A stretch of DNA of 64,000 nt from Natronococcus amylolyticus DSM 10524 (GTDB taxonomy: Archaea > Halobacteriota > Halobacteria > Halobacteriales > Natrialbaceae). Shown one piece after another: positions 28,718 to 48,516 of this stretch (positions are counted from its first letter, which is position 1; each line of letters opens with the position of its first letter). The notes under the pieces were generated by a model that saw only the letters and a list, made by a program, of their open reading frames with translations, did no database searches and was not told where the DNA came from. The stretch is from NCBI RefSeq assembly GCF_000337675.1, contig NZ_AOIB01000020.1:1-64000 (forward strand), in the 5' to 3' direction. The position numbers were made by a program, and so were the translations under genes.

Positions 28718-29467
28718 GCAGATCGATAGCGCCTTCGAACTTGGTCATCGTCGCCGCGGTTCCGAGGGGCCGCTATGTAGCGAGTGCGAATGGAACGTCC
28801 GGCCTCGAGTCTGCAGTGCCGATCAGCCGCCGCTGGGTGGGACTGAAAGCGGCTGGGCCGCTCGAGGAGCGAGGCGGCGCAAGCACTGGAACGAACGGAG
28901 TGAGTAAAGTCGTTCGAAAGACGCTTCGCGTCTTTCGTGAGTGAGCGAATCGAAGATTCGCGATCTCCGCGAAACCGACGGTTTCGCTTGATGACGAGAG
29001 AGCTTTGCTCTCTCGAACCACGCGTAGCGAGCCGCAGCCCTCGAGCAACGGGAGAGCTTCGCTCTCCCGAGGATCGCGGACGCGAAGCGTCCGCTCAACG
29101 CGCCAGGGGCTTTCGGGGTGATGCTGACGGATAGCAGGACCTGCTCGCACGAACACAGGGGATGCCACACCCTCCCCAACCGACTCGCTCACTCCCTTCG
29201 TTCGTCCCTCGCACAATGTCGTCGACCGTCCTCACTGACGTTCGGCCGGTCTGCTCACGGGTCACTCCTTCCCCGTTCGCTCTTTCGAGGCGTTCCCTTC
29301 GGTCGCGCCTCGCCGACAGCGCGCGCCACCGCAGGTGGAATGGTCGGACCGAGCTGAGACATCATTCACCTGTACGCAACGCGTGATTTTGCTCGAGCAT
29401 ACCCCACACACTACGCGAATCGCCGATTCCGCTGGAACTTTGACCCGGTACCGTTCCACTCTGTACC
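28718..29467. other. Non-coding interval holding repeat copy 1
   Basis: These 750 bases have no real gene. Almost all is the palindrome-rich repeat described at 28774-29360. The rest, 29361-29467, contains the MFS promoter region just before the ATG at 29468; GGTACCGTTCC is near its end, and no clear TATA box is seen. Confidence 0.6.
28774..29360 (+). repeat. Palindrome-modular non-coding repeat, copy 1
   Basis: A 587-base element shared with 38982-39576. The left end carries AGTGCGAATGGAACGT, then GGCCTCGAGTCT; the right end carries CTTTCGGGGTGATGCTGAC and finishes GGTCGGACCGAGCTGA. Between them lie perfect stem-loops: GAAAGACGC/GCGTCTTTC, CGAATC/GATTCG, GCGAAACC/GGTTTCGC, GAGAGAGC/GCTCTCTC, GGGAGAGC/GCTCTCCC and GCGGACGC/GCGTCCGC. 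No open frame is conserved between the copies. Ends match in the same orientation as copy 2, inner modules do not. It could be a non-autonomous mobile element or a structured RNA. Confidence 0.8.
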
Positions 29468-38830: not shown

Positions 38831-39807
38831 CTAGCCTGAAAGAACCGCTTGCCGGGCATAAGTGGCGCGGCCGACTCGAGGCGTCCGTTTCGTGATCAGC
38901 AGTTCAGCGGAAGAGTTTCGACAATCCTCCAATCAGTGACGGTTCTACCTCCCGACATGAGTAGTATGGACCGTCCGGCGTTATGTCTGCAGTGCGAATG
39001 GAACGTTTGGCCTCGAGTCTCCAGTACCGGTCAACCACTGCGGGGGTGGGACTGAAAGGGGCTGGGCGTTGAGCGGACGCAAAGCGTCCGCGATGCTCGG
39101 GAGGGCTTCGCTCTCCCGTTGCTCAAGGAGCGAGGCGAAATAAGCACCGCAGGGAGCAACGCGACCGAGGAGCATGGTTCGAGAGAGCACAGCTCTCTCG
39201 TCATCAAGCGAAACCGTCGGTTTCGCGGAGATCGCGAATCGAAGATTCGCTCACTCACGAAAGGCGCAGAGCGCCTTTCGAACGACAGCGAGCCACAGCC
39301 CTCGAGCGGGACAGGAGCTTTCGGGGTGATACTGACGAGTAGCAGTCCTGCTCGCACGAACACAGGAGATTGCTACGTCCTCCCCAGCCGATTCGCTCAC
39401 TCCCTGCGGTAGTTCGCTCATCCCTCGCGCAGTATCGTCGACCGCCCTCGCTTTCGCTCACGGTTCCCTTCGGTCACCGTTCGCTTTTCGAGGCACTCGC
39501 ATACTCGCACCTCGCGACGCTCGGTCGGTCGACAGCGCACGCCACCGCAAGAAGAACGGTCGGACCGAACTGATACGTGGTCCGCCTCTATGGAACGCAA
39601 TGTCTACGGATCAATCGGCAGACCACTTTTCGCTTGTCAATCGACACCCACCGACATTCTGCGAAACGGTCGACTTTCGATATAACAGGATGAGGTTTAC
39701 TCGACGCAGGGCGGACAGTCCGAGGACGACCGCCGATCGCACCGCTCGGAAAAATCGTCGAACGAGACGCGCGAAACCGATCCGGCCTGAGAAGAAGTCG
39801 TCGACCG
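38831..39807. other. Non-coding interval holding repeat copy 2
   Basis: These 977 bases lack a real gene. Bases 38982-39576 are repeat copy 2. The flanks 38831-38981 and 39577-39807 contain no recognisable element; the right flank has mixed composition with CGATATAACAGG near 39680. Confidence 0.55.
38982..39576 (+). repeat. Palindrome-modular non-coding repeat, copy 2
   Basis: A 595-base relative of 28774-29360. Left end (AGTGCGAATGGAACGT, GGCCTCGAGTCT) and right end (CTTTCGGGGTGATACTGAC through GGTCGGACCGAACTGATAC) run in the same direction as copy 1. The inner stem-loops come in a different order and strand: first the GCGGACGC and GGGAGGGC units (39066-39122), then an AGGAGCGAGGCG linker, then GAGAGAGC, GCGAAACC, CGAATC and GAAAGGCGC units (39176-39285), each block reversed relative to copy 1. 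The AGCGAGCC.CAGCCCTCGAG linker keeps its direction. No coding capacity is seen. Confidence 0.8.
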
Positions 39808-42304: not shown

Positions 42305-42766
42305 ATGGAGTCGCTTCACCCGCGAATCAGGCTGTTGTGGATCGCACAGACGGCGATCCTGGCGGCCGTGCTCGGTGCCGTCCTCGTCGCCGTCGACCGG
42401 TGGCTCGTCCCCGTGCCGACGGCCGGACTGGTGGGTATCGTCGCCGTCGCGGCGGTCCTCGGAATCGCCTACGCCGTCCGGCTCTACCAGATCTGGCAGT
42501 TCGAACTGCAGGGCGACGCCCTCTATCTCGAGCGCGGTGTCATCACGTTCGTCGAGACGGCCGTCCCGTTCGTTCGGGTCCAACACGTCGACACGCAGTT
42601 CGGCCCCGTCGAGCGAACGCTCGGACTCTCGAGCGTCGTCGTCTACACGGCAGGCTCGCGAAACGCCGACGTTCGGATCCCCGGACTGACGCCGGATCGC
42701 GCCCGGAAGCTACAGGATACGCTCCGAGAACTCGCCGTCGAAAGTGAGGCCGACGACGCCGTATGA
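42305..42766 (+). CDS. PH-domain membrane protein, small (YdbS-like), pair 1
   Basis: A 153-residue protein with two hydrophobic segments (about 11-30 and 37-58), followed by one bacterial PH domain: EGDALYLERGV-type start (LQGDALYLERGVITF), the VPFVRVQHVDTQFGPVERTL core and LSSVVVYTAGSRNADVRIPG. It overlaps the next gene (ATGA), so the two products are probably made together and form a membrane complex. A paralogue at 46472 has the same layout. The molecular role is unknown; related bacterial proteins help resist membrane-active compounds. Confidence 0.85.
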   Translation: MESLHPRIRLLWIAQTAILAAVLGAVLVAVDRWLVPVPTAGLVGIVAVAAVLGIAYAVRLYQIWQFELQGDALYLERGVITFVETAVPFVRVQHVDTQFGPVERTLGLSSVVVYTAGSRNADVRIPGLTPDRARKLQDTLRELAVESEADDAV

Positions 42767-44403
42767 ATCGGCTCCACCCCTTCAGCGCGGTCGTCTACGC
42801 GCTTCGGTACGGCCTGCTGTGGCTGTGGGTTCCGTTCTTCCTCGTCACCGCCCTCGCGGGGACCGTCGCGGCCGTCAGCATCGCCTGGCTGCCGGTGGTC
42901 ACGGCGCTTGGCTTCCTCTTTGGCGCCGCGTACGGTATCGTCTACTACTACCGCTTCGAATACGGAATCACGCCGGACACGTTCGACGTCGCCTCCGGGG
43001 TCGTCGCGCGTCGCTCCCGCGAGATACCCTATCGGCGGATCCAGAACGTCGACGTCCGCCAGGGCGTGTTACAGCGCGTCCTCGGGCTCGCGGTCGTCAC
43101 CGTCGAAACCGCTGGCGGCGGCAACAGCGAGGCGGCACTCCAACTCGTGAGCAAGTCGGAGGCCGATCGCCTCCAGCACCAGATCCGGCGTCGAACCGCC
43201 GGCGTCGACGCCGACGACCCCGACCGAGCCACCTCCGAGGCATCCGAGGACGGCCGACCACTCGACGATGAACCGCTCGACGAGCAGCCGTCTCGAGTCG
43301 ATAGAACTCCCGAGACGCCGCCGGCTTCCGAGACGCGACCCCGGCGCGAACCGACCGAACCGAGCCGAAAACGGCTGTTCGCCCTCGATTCTCGAGAACT
43401 GCTCCTCTACTCGCTGACGACGCTGCGGCCAGCTGCCCTCGCCGCCGTTGGATTCCTGTTTTTCTTCGCGACCGATACGATTCTCGACTTCCTCGTGACC
43501 CTCTCGCAGCCGTTCGGCGGTCCGCAGGACCTCCAGACGGGCGACACACAGAGCTACGGCGTCCTGACGGTCGTCTCGATGATAAACGGGATCGTCATTA
43601 CCTACCTCGTCAGTGTGGCCTACACCTTCGCGACGTACTACGACTTCCGGCTCGGTCGGGTCGACGAGGACTTCGTCTACGAGCGAGGGTTGCTCCAGCG
43701 CTACAGCGGCTCGATCCCCGCGGAGAAGGTACAGTCGGTGACGATCACCGACAACCCGCTCCAGCGGCTGATCGACTACGCCGGACTGTGGGTCGAGACG
43801 GCCGGCTACGGCCCCGACAGCAGCGGCGGCAGCCAGTCGGCCGTTCCCATGGCCCGCGCGGCTCACGTCCACCGGTTCGCGGAGAACCTCACGCACGTCG
43901 AAACGCCCGCGTTCGCGAGTCCGTCGCCGATCGCCCGCCGTCGATATCTCGTTCGCTACTCCCTGATCGCCGCCGTCGTCGTCGCCGCCGCCCTCGCACT
44001 CGCACAGGTGGCGCCCCTCGAGCGGTGGTATCTCGCCGCGGTCGTCTTTGCGGCGGTCCCGCCCGCGGCCCACCTGCGGTACGTCCATCTTGGCTACTAC
44101 GTCGGCGAGGACCACCTGGTGATCCGCCGTGGATTCTGGCGCCGACGGACGACCGTGATCCCCTACTTCCGGATCCAGACCGTCTCCACCCGACGATCGG
44201 TCTTCCAGCGCCGGCTCGGCATCGCCTCGCTGGTCGTCGACACCGCCAGCTCGCGGACGCTGTTCTGGGATACCCCGACGATATACGACGTCGACCTCGA
44301 GGACGCCCGTGGCGCCCACCGAACCGGCCGGAAGCGTCTGCAGTCGGCCCTGCGAGAGCGGGCTCGCGCCGACGACGCCGGCTTTTCGGTGGATTTTACC
44401 TGA
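42763..44403 (+). CDS. PH-domain membrane protein, large (YdbT-like), pair 1
   Basis: A 546-residue protein with three bacterial PH domains. Each follows a pair of hydrophobic segments: domain 1 (IPYRRIQNVDVRQGVLQRVL), domain 2 (SIPAEKVQSVTITDNPLQRL) and domain 3 (IPYFRIQTVSTRRSVFQRRL). A hydrophilic, Glu/Arg/Pro-rich linker of about 60 residues (roughly 145-205) separates domains 1 and 2. Its start overlaps the small partner's stop. The gene is followed 20 bases later by fumC on the same strand. Confidence 0.87.
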   Translation: MNRLHPFSAVVYALRYGLLWLWVPFFLVTALAGTVAAVSIAWLPVVTALGFLFGAAYGIVYYYRFEYGITPDTFDVASGVVARRSREIPYRRIQNVDVRQGVLQRVLGLAVVTVETAGGGNSEAALQLVSKSEADRLQHQIRRRTAGVDADDPDRATSEASEDGRPLDDEPLDEQPSRVDRTPETPPASETRPRREPTEPSRKRLFALDSRELLLYSLTTLRPAALAAVGFLFFFATDTILDFLVTLSQPFGGPQDLQTGDTQSYGVLTVVSMINGIVITYLVSVAYTFATYYDFRLGRVDEDFVYERGLLQRYSGSIPAEKVQSVTITDNPLQRLIDYAGLWVETAGYGPDSSGGSQSAVPMARAAHVHRFAENLTHVETPAFASPSPIARRRYLVRYSLIAAVVVAAALALAQVAPLERWYLAAVVFAAVPPAAHLRYVHLGYYVGEDHLVIRRGFWRRRTTVIPYFRIQTVSTRRSVFQRRLGIASLVVDTASSRTLFWDTPTIYDVDLEDARGAHRTGRKRLQSALRERARADDAGFSVDFT

Positions 44404-46471: not shown

Positions 46472-46960
46472 ATGGAGCGACTCAATCCCCGGGTCCGCGT
46501 CGTCTGGCTGTTCTTGGCGGTATTCCGGGCTGGAATCGTCGGCGGATTTCTCGTCGGCGCCGCGCTGGTACTCTCAGAGACGGGGCTATGGGCGAACTCG
46601 CCGGACCTACTCGTTCCGGGTGCGATCGGTCTCGCGGTCGCCCTTGGACTCGTCCGCATCATCGTCGCCTGGCGGCGCTACGCCGTCTGGCGCTTCGAGG
46701 TGCAGGACGACGGGCTCTACATCGAGCGGGGGGTCTTCACCCGGATCAAGACCGTCGTCCCCTACGTCCGCGTCCAGCACGTCGACTCGAGGCGGTCGCC
46801 GATCGAGCGAACGACCGGGCTGGCGACGGTCGTCGTCTACACGGCGGGCTCGCGAAGCGCCGACGTCGCGATCCCCGGACTGACGCCAGAGCGAGCCGAG
46901 CAGCTCCGTGAGGACCTGCGCCGGCTCGCGATCGAGAGCGAGGGTGAGGACGCGGTATGA
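46472..46960 (+). CDS. PH-domain membrane protein, small (YdbS-like), pair 2
   Basis: A 162-residue paralogue of the gene at 42305. It has two hydrophobic segments (about 12-33 and 46-66), then one bacterial PH domain with VQDDGLYIERGVFTRIKTVV, VPYVRVQHVDSRRSPIERTT and ATVVVYTAGSRSADVAIPGL. Shared stretches with pair 1, such as YVRVQHVD/FVRVQHVD, VVVYTAGSR and IPGLTP, show a duplication, not convergence. It overlaps the next gene by four bases. Confidence 0.85.
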   Translation: MERLNPRVRVVWLFLAVFRAGIVGGFLVGAALVLSETGLWANSPDLLVPGAIGLAVALGLVRIIVAWRRYAVWRFEVQDDGLYIERGVFTRIKTVVPYVRVQHVDSRRSPIERTTGLATVVVYTAGSRSADVAIPGLTPERAEQLREDLRRLAIESEGEDAV

Positions 46961-48516
46961 GAAAACTCCACCCGCTCTCGATCGCGGTCAGATCGATCTC
47001 GCGCAGCGTCAACGTCGGGCTCCTCTTTTTCATCGCCGGCGTCTTCGCCTCGCCTGGCGGTGCCGGGGGGACACTCGTCTCCGTCGGCGGGATGGTGTTG
47101 CTCGGAATCGTCGTCGCAGTCGTCTACGAGGTCGCCTACTACGAGCGGTTCCGGTACGAACTCACGGCGGACACGTTCGACGTCGCCTCCGGGGTCCTCG
47201 CGAGGCGCGACCGGGAGGTTCCGCTGCGACGGATCCAGAACGTCGACGTCCGTCAGCCGGTTCTCAGCCGACTGTTCGGGCTCGCGGCCGTCCACATCGA
47301 GACCGCCGGCGGCGGCCAGACCGAGGTCTCCCTGCAGTACGTCGACGAGGAGGAAGCTCGACGACTCAGACGCCAGCTTCGCCGCGGCGCGCGAGCCGAA
47401 GACGACGAGGGCGAGGAGTCGGCGTCCGAGACTCGAGACTCGAGCCCGGACGACGAAGAGGAGCTTCTCTTCGAGATCGAACCCCGGGAGCTGGCGATCC
47501 TCAGCGTGTTCACGATCGACCCCGGGGCCAGCCTGCTGGGCGGAATCGCGCTGTCCTTTCTCAGCGGGTTCGACCCGTCGACGCTGATCCCGGCCGACCT
47601 GGTCGACGGCCTACCCGGCGCCGAGGGTGGGCTCGTCGCCCTCGCGTGGCTCGTCGTCCTGTTCCTGCTCGCGGCCTGGGTCGTCAGCGCCGTCCTCACC
47701 TTCAACCGCTACTACGGGTTCCGACTCACCCGCGGCGGCGACGAACTCTACTACGAGCGGGGGCTCGTCCAGCGCTACAGCGGAACGATCCCCCTCGAGA
47801 AAGTTCAGACGCTGACGATCACCGAGCGCGTGCCGTTCCGGTGGTTCGGCTACGGCGCGCTAGCGGTCGAAACCGCCGGCTACGCGCCCGGGCAGGGCTC
47901 TCGAGGGACGGAGTCGGCGATCCCGCTTGCGGGCTACGACCGCGTCGTGGGCCTGGCCCGATCGATCGAGCCCTTCGGCGAGGTCGACCTCGAGGCCCCG
48001 CCCAAGCGCGCACGGGAACGGTACGGCGTTCGGTACCTGCTGGTCGTCGGTGCGTTGGTCGGCGCCGGCTACCTGCTCACGACCGCGACGGCGCTCGAGC
48101 GGTGGTACCTCCCCGCTGCCCTGATCGTCCTCGTCCCCGCCGCGGCCCACCTGAAGTGGCGCAATCGGGGCCACCAGCTCGGTGACCGCTACGTCTTCAC
48201 CCGAACCGGGTTCTGGAACCGGACGACCAAGGTCGTCCCCTACTACCGCGTCCAGGCGGTGTTGCACACCCAGTCGATCTTCCAGCGACGGCGCCGCCTG
48301 GCGAGCGTCACCGCCGACACCGCCAGCTCGGCCTCGCTTCTCGGCCGCGCAGCGACCGCCTACGACATCGACGACGAGCGCGGGCTCGAGATGCAACTCG
48401 AGATCGAGGAGCGGTTGCAGGAACGGCTTCGGGCACGAAAGCGAGAGCGGACGGTCGGAGAGTGGTTTCAGCACGACCTTTCGAACGACGAATCGGCCGG
48501 TGACGACTCGGAATAG
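46957..48516 (+). CDS. PH-domain membrane protein, large (YdbT-like), pair 2
   Basis: A 519-residue paralogue of the gene at 42763 with three bacterial PH domains and paired membrane segments: VPLRRIQNVDVRQPVLSRLF, TIPLEKVQTLTITERVPFRW and VPYYRVQAVLHTQSIFQRRR are the domain cores. The charged linker after domain 1 (REARRLRRQ to DDEEELLFEIEPREL) is shorter than in pair 1. The C terminus is a charged tail of about 40 residues. It is the last gene before a 2-kb non-coding zone. Confidence 0.87.
   Translation: MRKLHPLSIAVRSISRSVNVGLLFFIAGVFASPGGAGGTLVSVGGMVLLGIVVAVVYEVAYYERFRYELTADTFDVASGVLARRDREVPLRRIQNVDVRQPVLSRLFGLAAVHIETAGGGQTEVSLQYVDEEEARRLRRQLRRGARAEDDEGEESASETRDSSPDDEEELLFEIEPRELAILSVFTIDPGASLLGGIALSFLSGFDPSTLIPADLVDGLPGAEGGLVALAWLVVLFLLAAWVVSAVLTFNRYYGFRLTRGGDELYYERGLVQRYSGTIPLEKVQTLTITERVPFRWFGYGALAVETAGYAPGQGSRGTESAIPLAGYDRVVGLARSIEPFGEVDLEAPPKRARERYGVRYLLVVGALVGAGYLLTTATALERWYLPAALIVLVPAAAHLKWRNRGHQLGDRYVFTRTGFWNRTTKVVPYYRVQAVLHTQSIFQRRRRLASVTADTASSASLLGRAATAYDIDDERGLEMQLEIEERLQERLRARKRERTVGEWFQHDLSNDESAGDDSE

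Follow-up and report, generated by a model that had tools for sequence, protein, structure and literature searches.

Repeats E1 and E2 and their modules

The window, i.e., the whole 64,000-nucleotide stretch of Natronococcus amylolyticus DSM 10524 analysed here, contains two repeats of about 590 bp, E1 and E2. Their features are presented in Table 1. A repeat search of the window returned the ends of E1 and E2 as direct pairs (28771-28837 / 38979-39045 and 29099-29137 / 39307-39345) at a constant spacing of 10208. Two inner modules were returned as inverted pairs: M1 (28909-29023 / 39172-39286, 115 nt, 92% complementary) and M2 (29039-29101 / 39066-39128, 63 nt, 86%), the latter lying on the opposite side in the second copy. 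The linkers keep their order and direction in both copies, AGGAGCGAGGCG preceding M1 and GCAGCCCTCGAG / ACAGCCCTCGAG following it. The pieces yielded BLAST E-values of 1.3e-47, 2.8e-38 and 1.8e-17, which excludes chance similarity. This arrangement agrees with the original prediction, in which two repeats with conserved ends in the same direction, reverse-complemented M1 and M2, M2 on the other side of M1, and linkers of constant direction were described. The same prediction described two copies and gave limits for the element, and both have to be revised: the homology goes on past both limits into eroded terminal repeats, and the organism's own genome contains 69 matching pieces, which correspond to about 18 full or partial elements. 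Multiple copies, one of the checks proposed along with the prediction, are hence present.

Table 1. Coordinates of the features of E1 and E2 in the window.
Feature	Position	Strand
E1: probable decayed terminal inverted repeat (TIR) cassette core, E1-type non-coding interior; outer 31-bp TIRs eroded	28771..29387	+
E1 subterminal blocks retained: GCTATGTAGCGAG left, CACCTGTACGCAACGCG right	within 28771..29387	+
E1 left conserved block A (GTGCGAATGGAACG...GGGTGGGACTGAAAG) with CCRCC/GGTGG hairpin	28784..28849	+
M0 left arm in E1 (linker AGGAGCGAGGCG)	28859..28909	+
M1 in E1: 111 bp, four hairpins, ends TCGTTCGA / TCGAACCA, within M0, no target duplication	28910..29020	+
M0 right arm in E1 (linker GCAGCCCTCGAG)	29021..29046	+
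M2 in E1, two-hairpin form	29047..29099	+
E1 right conserved block B and start of D (GGGGCTTTCGGGGTGAT...GGGGATGCCACACCCTCCCC...)	29100..29251	+
Extra optional module in D-hairpin loop of E1 (element positions 479-540)	29252..29313	+
E2: second probable decayed cassette, of E1's family	38979..39605	+
M2 in E2, inverted, left of M0	39068..39124	-
M0 left arm in E2	39125..39174	+
M1 in E2, inverted	39175..39285	-
M0 right arm in E2	39286..39312	+

Side-by-side comparison of the copies yielded a base element (E1 positions 1-80, 329-478 and 541-587) that can host optional units: M0, with M1 nested in it; M2, which adjoins the M0 base on the left or the right; and inserts in the right half. The optional module in the D-hairpin loop is missing from most copies. 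The two linkers are the arms of M0 and lie at the stem tip (GACTGAAAGGGGC...GCCAGGGGCTTTC). M0 is found without M1 in L032, L035, L036, L040 and L041, and the empty forms are supplied by the copies that lack M1 or M2. M1 is forward in E1, L031 and (shortened) L038, and inverted in E2 and L084, four bases away; M2 has two hairpins in E1 and four in the orthologue L084. A simple inversion of the whole centre was ruled out, given that M1 and M2 are each flipped on their own and the M0 arms are not flipped at all. Of the claim that the modules are inverted and moved, the inversion is borne out, but what looked like movement is better understood as nesting of separate modules (M1 in M0, M2 at the M0 base). 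The description of the element as modular, invertible, hairpin-built and non-coding was upheld, and so was its separation from CRISPR, which was ruled out because the repeat search found no short direct repeats at regular intervals in this element.

Copies were found in 42 of the 61 related genomes. Among named records, the conserved core was found in Natronococcus, and additionally in Natrinema zhouii and one Natrialbaceae MAG. The window also contains two paralogous regions (42609-43751 and 46803-47825), about 4.2 kb apart with blocks that are 73-76% identical, which represent a gene duplication unrelated to the repeat.

Ends, target duplications and cargo

The true ends are resolved in N. 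pandeyae and other Natronococcus as a 31-bp TIR of the CAGTAGTTGGTAATACGGTTTCTTTATTCAG type (left CAGTAGTTGGTARTACGGTTTCTTTATTCAG, right CAGTAGATAGTAGCACGGTTTCTTTATTCAG), inside which lies a second, subterminal inverted block around GTTACGTA. Both 31-bp TIRs are kept by E1-type copies of N. pandeyae (L114, L163). Considering all fetched loci, 24 of the 39 unique TIR pairs present an exact 4-bp target duplication, mostly NTAN, in comparison with a mean of 1.75 and a maximum of 8 when partners are shuffled. In E1-type copies with both TIRs, the duplications are mostly near matches (CTAG/CTAA, GTAC/GTAG). According to flank constructs, related species have contiguous empty sites for the L164 and L171 insertions, and more diverged ones for L160. 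Given the TIRs, the 4-bp duplication and the empty sites, the host element is read as a transposase-less TIR element, with the TIR pairs and duplications that characterise MITEs and other non-autonomous TIR elements.

In E1 and E2 proper, the subterminal blocks alone are still recognisable, with no recognisable outer TIR or target duplication, so both copies are old. Their apparent membership in the family rests on common interior and subterminal blocks.

With up to two mismatches allowed, the TIR was detected in 121 of 394 Halobacteria genomes, representing 42 of 86 genera; a reversed control pattern gave zero hits. It is also found on plasmids of Halobacterium, Halorussus, Haloarcula, Halorubrum and others. 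Stop-codon targeting was discarded, as just 4 of the 24 cassettes with a target duplication coincide exactly with the stop codon of a long ORF. Enterobacterial plasmids match 29 nt of the right-end consensus at 93-97% (H110-H113, H118-H120; E ~1e-3 to 1e-2), probably by chance.

The same ends enclose unrelated contents, either single genes or hairpin-rich non-coding DNA. Cargo confirmed by Pfam comprises a methyltransferase, an EamA transporter, a Cys/Met metabolism enzyme with a MOSC protein, UspA, a PIN toxin with a MazE-like antitoxin (a VapBC-like pair), a hexapeptide acetyltransferase, an alpha/beta hydrolase, an AsnC-type regulator, a PAS-GAF histidine kinase and DUF7344 proteins; several cargo lipoproteins and membrane proteins belong to no Pfam family. 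Among the non-coding contents, the E1 type occurs in L163 and L114, and other hairpin-rich interiors occur in L160, L164, L167, L168, L171, L174 and L201, several of them with a GAACTTTTTCCGC... core. None of the 20 scanned cargo proteins is transposase-like, and no transposase able to act as mobiliser was found in the interiors read. The cassette with the PIN toxin and MazE-like antitoxin (L207:3445-4439) is flanked by an exact duplication of TTTC; few other duplications likewise lack a central TA.

Interiors at orthologous loci

The contents of a site differ from species to species. One site is occupied by L164, with the second non-coding type of interior, and in another species by L099, with the E1 type, GTAG flanks being common to both; at a second site, two species hold the different interiors of L168 and L090, in the opposite species order. 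The E2 locus presents three different module sets in three species, and the E1 site of another species (L240) is merely a short intergenic stretch. In L084, the orthologue of E1, M1 and the neighbouring CGCG are together an exact inversion of the E1 arrangement.

At six orthologous loci, the flanks are 85-97% identical and the orthologue interiors 79-91% where alignable, while the interior bit score was every time higher with a copy from another locus, with one near tie. Given that bit scores favour copies with the same modules, single comparisons are weaker than the whole set. The pattern is plainest in two cases: the interior of L036 is 93% identical over 451 bp to its paralogue L032 vs 86% over 257 bp to its orthologue L098, and that of L044 is 94% identical over 370 bp to the non-orthologous L087 vs 84% over 217 bp to L088. 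For the E1 interior, it is the orthologue that is more identical where aligned (91% over 245 bp vs 85% over 440).

Haloarchaea are described as polyploid, with efficient gene conversion, in PMC8223754 and PMC11276520. Non-allelic gene conversion would be the simplest reading of the interior exchange; repeated loss and reinsertion at one site could, strictly speaking, leave the same pattern.

Proposed reading, alternatives and known systems

We consider it likely that E1 and E2 are TIR cassettes, decayed and devoid of a transposase, that contain nested palindromic modules and whose interiors were shuffled by ectopic recombination. Direct support comes from the ends, the target duplications, the empty sites, the diversity of cargo, the in-place change of interiors and the covariation of M1. 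In this scheme, the family would be defined by its ends, i.e., the 31-bp TIR with the subterminal inverted GTTACGTA-type block, and by the 4-bp NTAN target duplication, and the ends may be recognised by a transposase working in trans. The interior would be exchangeable cargo: some copies hold single genes, others hairpin-rich non-coding DNA. In the E1-type interior, M0, the 111-bp M1, M2 and the loop inserts would be nested in hairpin loops or at stem bases, with hairpins as the presumable targets of M1, which would enter either way round and without target duplication, like the SMR-A of Haloquadratum. Resident copies would swap interiors through non-allelic gene conversion or double crossover between common ends and blocks, so that flanks stay constant while the module set differs from species to species. 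Together with independent insertion or flipping of M1, such swapping would produce the inverted-and-moved pattern of E1 and E2. Both would be old members of a Halobacteria-wide non-autonomous TIR family and are probably no longer mobile. A broader reading is put forward tentatively, as a possibility that falls short of an even chance: a class-wide cassette system in which one end pair, served by an enzyme in trans, inserts arbitrary genes or structured units at NTAN and has its content exchanged via the ends, as a gene-sharing device.

In one alternative, the host element would be no more than a MITE derived from some known haloarchaeal IS, unrecognised here, and its coding cargo would be incidental. 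TIR, target duplication and small size are all MITE-like, and the ISH3 family likewise has a terminal CAGT and duplicates 4-5 bp (PMC2266710). The ends are nevertheless unlike ISH3 past CAGTA, the only common sequence (ISH3B starts with CAGTACCTCACAAAGC, and the ISH3 copies of the genus end with TCAGTACCTCACAAAGC), and ISH3 elements duplicate 5 bp (PMC10264941), hence ISH3 was rejected as parent. IS701 was rejected as well: its 4-bp duplication is compatible, but the IS701 loci of the relatives lack such a TIR. Inside or beside cassettes lie an ISH8 (in L202) and an IS110 (in L188). They are read as later insertions and not as mobilisers, since ISH8 comes with ends and a 10-bp duplication of its own, and no such TIR is made by IS110-type elements. 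No autonomous IS sharing these ends was found, with IS701 and ISH3 tested, and the cargo consists of unrelated genes without transposase remnants, so we regard descent from a known IS as rather unlikely. An origin as a decayed copy of a known IS had been named as a refuting finding with the original prediction, and the two families tested gave no such parent. The prediction's claim that the element does not fit a standard MITE has to be given up, in view of the TIRs, the 4-bp target duplication in better-preserved relatives and the empty sites in related species.

Other alternatives concern M1. Its stand-alone copies from many genomes align as a four-hairpin unit with conserved linkers, two of which are connected by one three-pair helix. 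Of its 38 consensus pairs, 18 are changed on both sides; two-sided changes amount to 57 cells vs 16.5 expected from shuffles, which ignore relatedness, and pairing is kept in 96.3% of cells vs at most 46% with partners slid. Compensatory changes, another check proposed with the original prediction, are therefore present and strong for M1. Along with the conservation of unpaired linkers (TGASTGA, TTGATGA) and an E1/E2 interior better preserved than the E1/E2 TIRs, these values could indicate selection on the fold of an ncRNA gene, formed by the E1-type cassette or by M1 alone, with the mobile ends just spreading it. Yet the covariation fits RNA and hairpin DNA alike, and template switching or gene conversion can keep hairpin DNA perfect without RNA function. 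Moreover, Rfam has no match at gathering score within the window, M1 is present in either orientation and missing from many copies, and the module content at one locus varies among species. A functional structured RNA is hence improbable. The exact inversion of M1 at the orthologous E1 locus would also be expected of a site-specific DNA switch, with a recombinase flipping M1 in place, as in phase variation. We find this highly improbable: inverted repeats outside M1 are absent, no recombinase was seen beside M1, and there are many stand-alone copies with their own ends, which explains both orientations by independent insertion.

As TIR cassettes with nested modules, E1 and E2 are a composite of known kinds, namely a transposase-less TIR cassette and nested short palindromic repeats. 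The BOX, ERIC and REP/BIME repeats of bacteria are also mosaics of palindromic intergenic modules, but lack a long cassette with TIRs, target duplication and exchangeable cargo. A class-wide single end set around varying cargo, with in-place exchange of interiors, looks new with respect to the literature searched, and the TIR was not found described as a haloarchaeal repeat in the open literature searched. If the cassette reading is right, a good share of haloarchaeal "orphan" small genes and intergenic hairpin DNA would constitute one mobile system with searchable ends, and gene gain, in-place cargo replacement and non-allelic gene conversion would be measurable class-wide. M1, whose stems co-change despite both orientations, would provide a test bed for the upkeep of perfect palindromic DNA.

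The mobile insertion cassettes (MICs) of Bacillus cereus, Aeromonas and Proteeae plasmids also carry a passenger gene between TIRs, with a target duplication; they have no transposase and are presumed to be mobilised in trans (PMC3913671, PMC5444012). Coding members of the present family likewise have a passenger gene, no transposase and IS-type ends, whereas E1-type cargo is non-coding. Unlike MICs, the family has one long two-block end set, class-wide in Archaea, which holds many unrelated genes or non-coding hairpin arrays; its interiors change in place and no parent IS is known. MITEs such as MITEHsal1/2 of Halobacterium are similarly short, non-coding and moved without an enzyme of their own (PMC10264941), but many members of the present family have coding cargo, and interiors are swapped; the duplication of MITEHsal2 is 6-8 bp (PMC10264941) vs the 4-bp NTAN found here. 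Palindrome-associated transposable elements (PATEs) are short, transposase-free, palindromic and often targeted by small repeats (PMC3119063). However, PATEs and other IS200-IS605 derivatives are recognised by subterminal palindromes without TIRs and target duplications, and the present family has both.

M1 resembles the Haloquadratum SMR-A (HqIRS42/43/55), which are ~110 bp long, have TIRs and no target duplication, and are nested in the palindromes of other elements; Haloquadratum "SwitchRepeats" are in opposite orientation at an identical position (PMC3119063). With 111 bp and the ends TCGTTCGA/TCGAACCA, M1 has the size and type of ends of SMR-A, and M0 copies without M1 join without duplication. 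M1 differs in being a four-hairpin unit with covarying stems, likened to HqIRS42/43/55 by description, and in having as host a TIR element instead of an IS605-type PATE. As raw occurrences, it was observed within the M0 hairpin and within other palindromes in L102, L103, L105, L108 and L049. In a further locus (L107:1492-1640), a copy of M1 adjoins the apparent 3' end of a tRNA gene.
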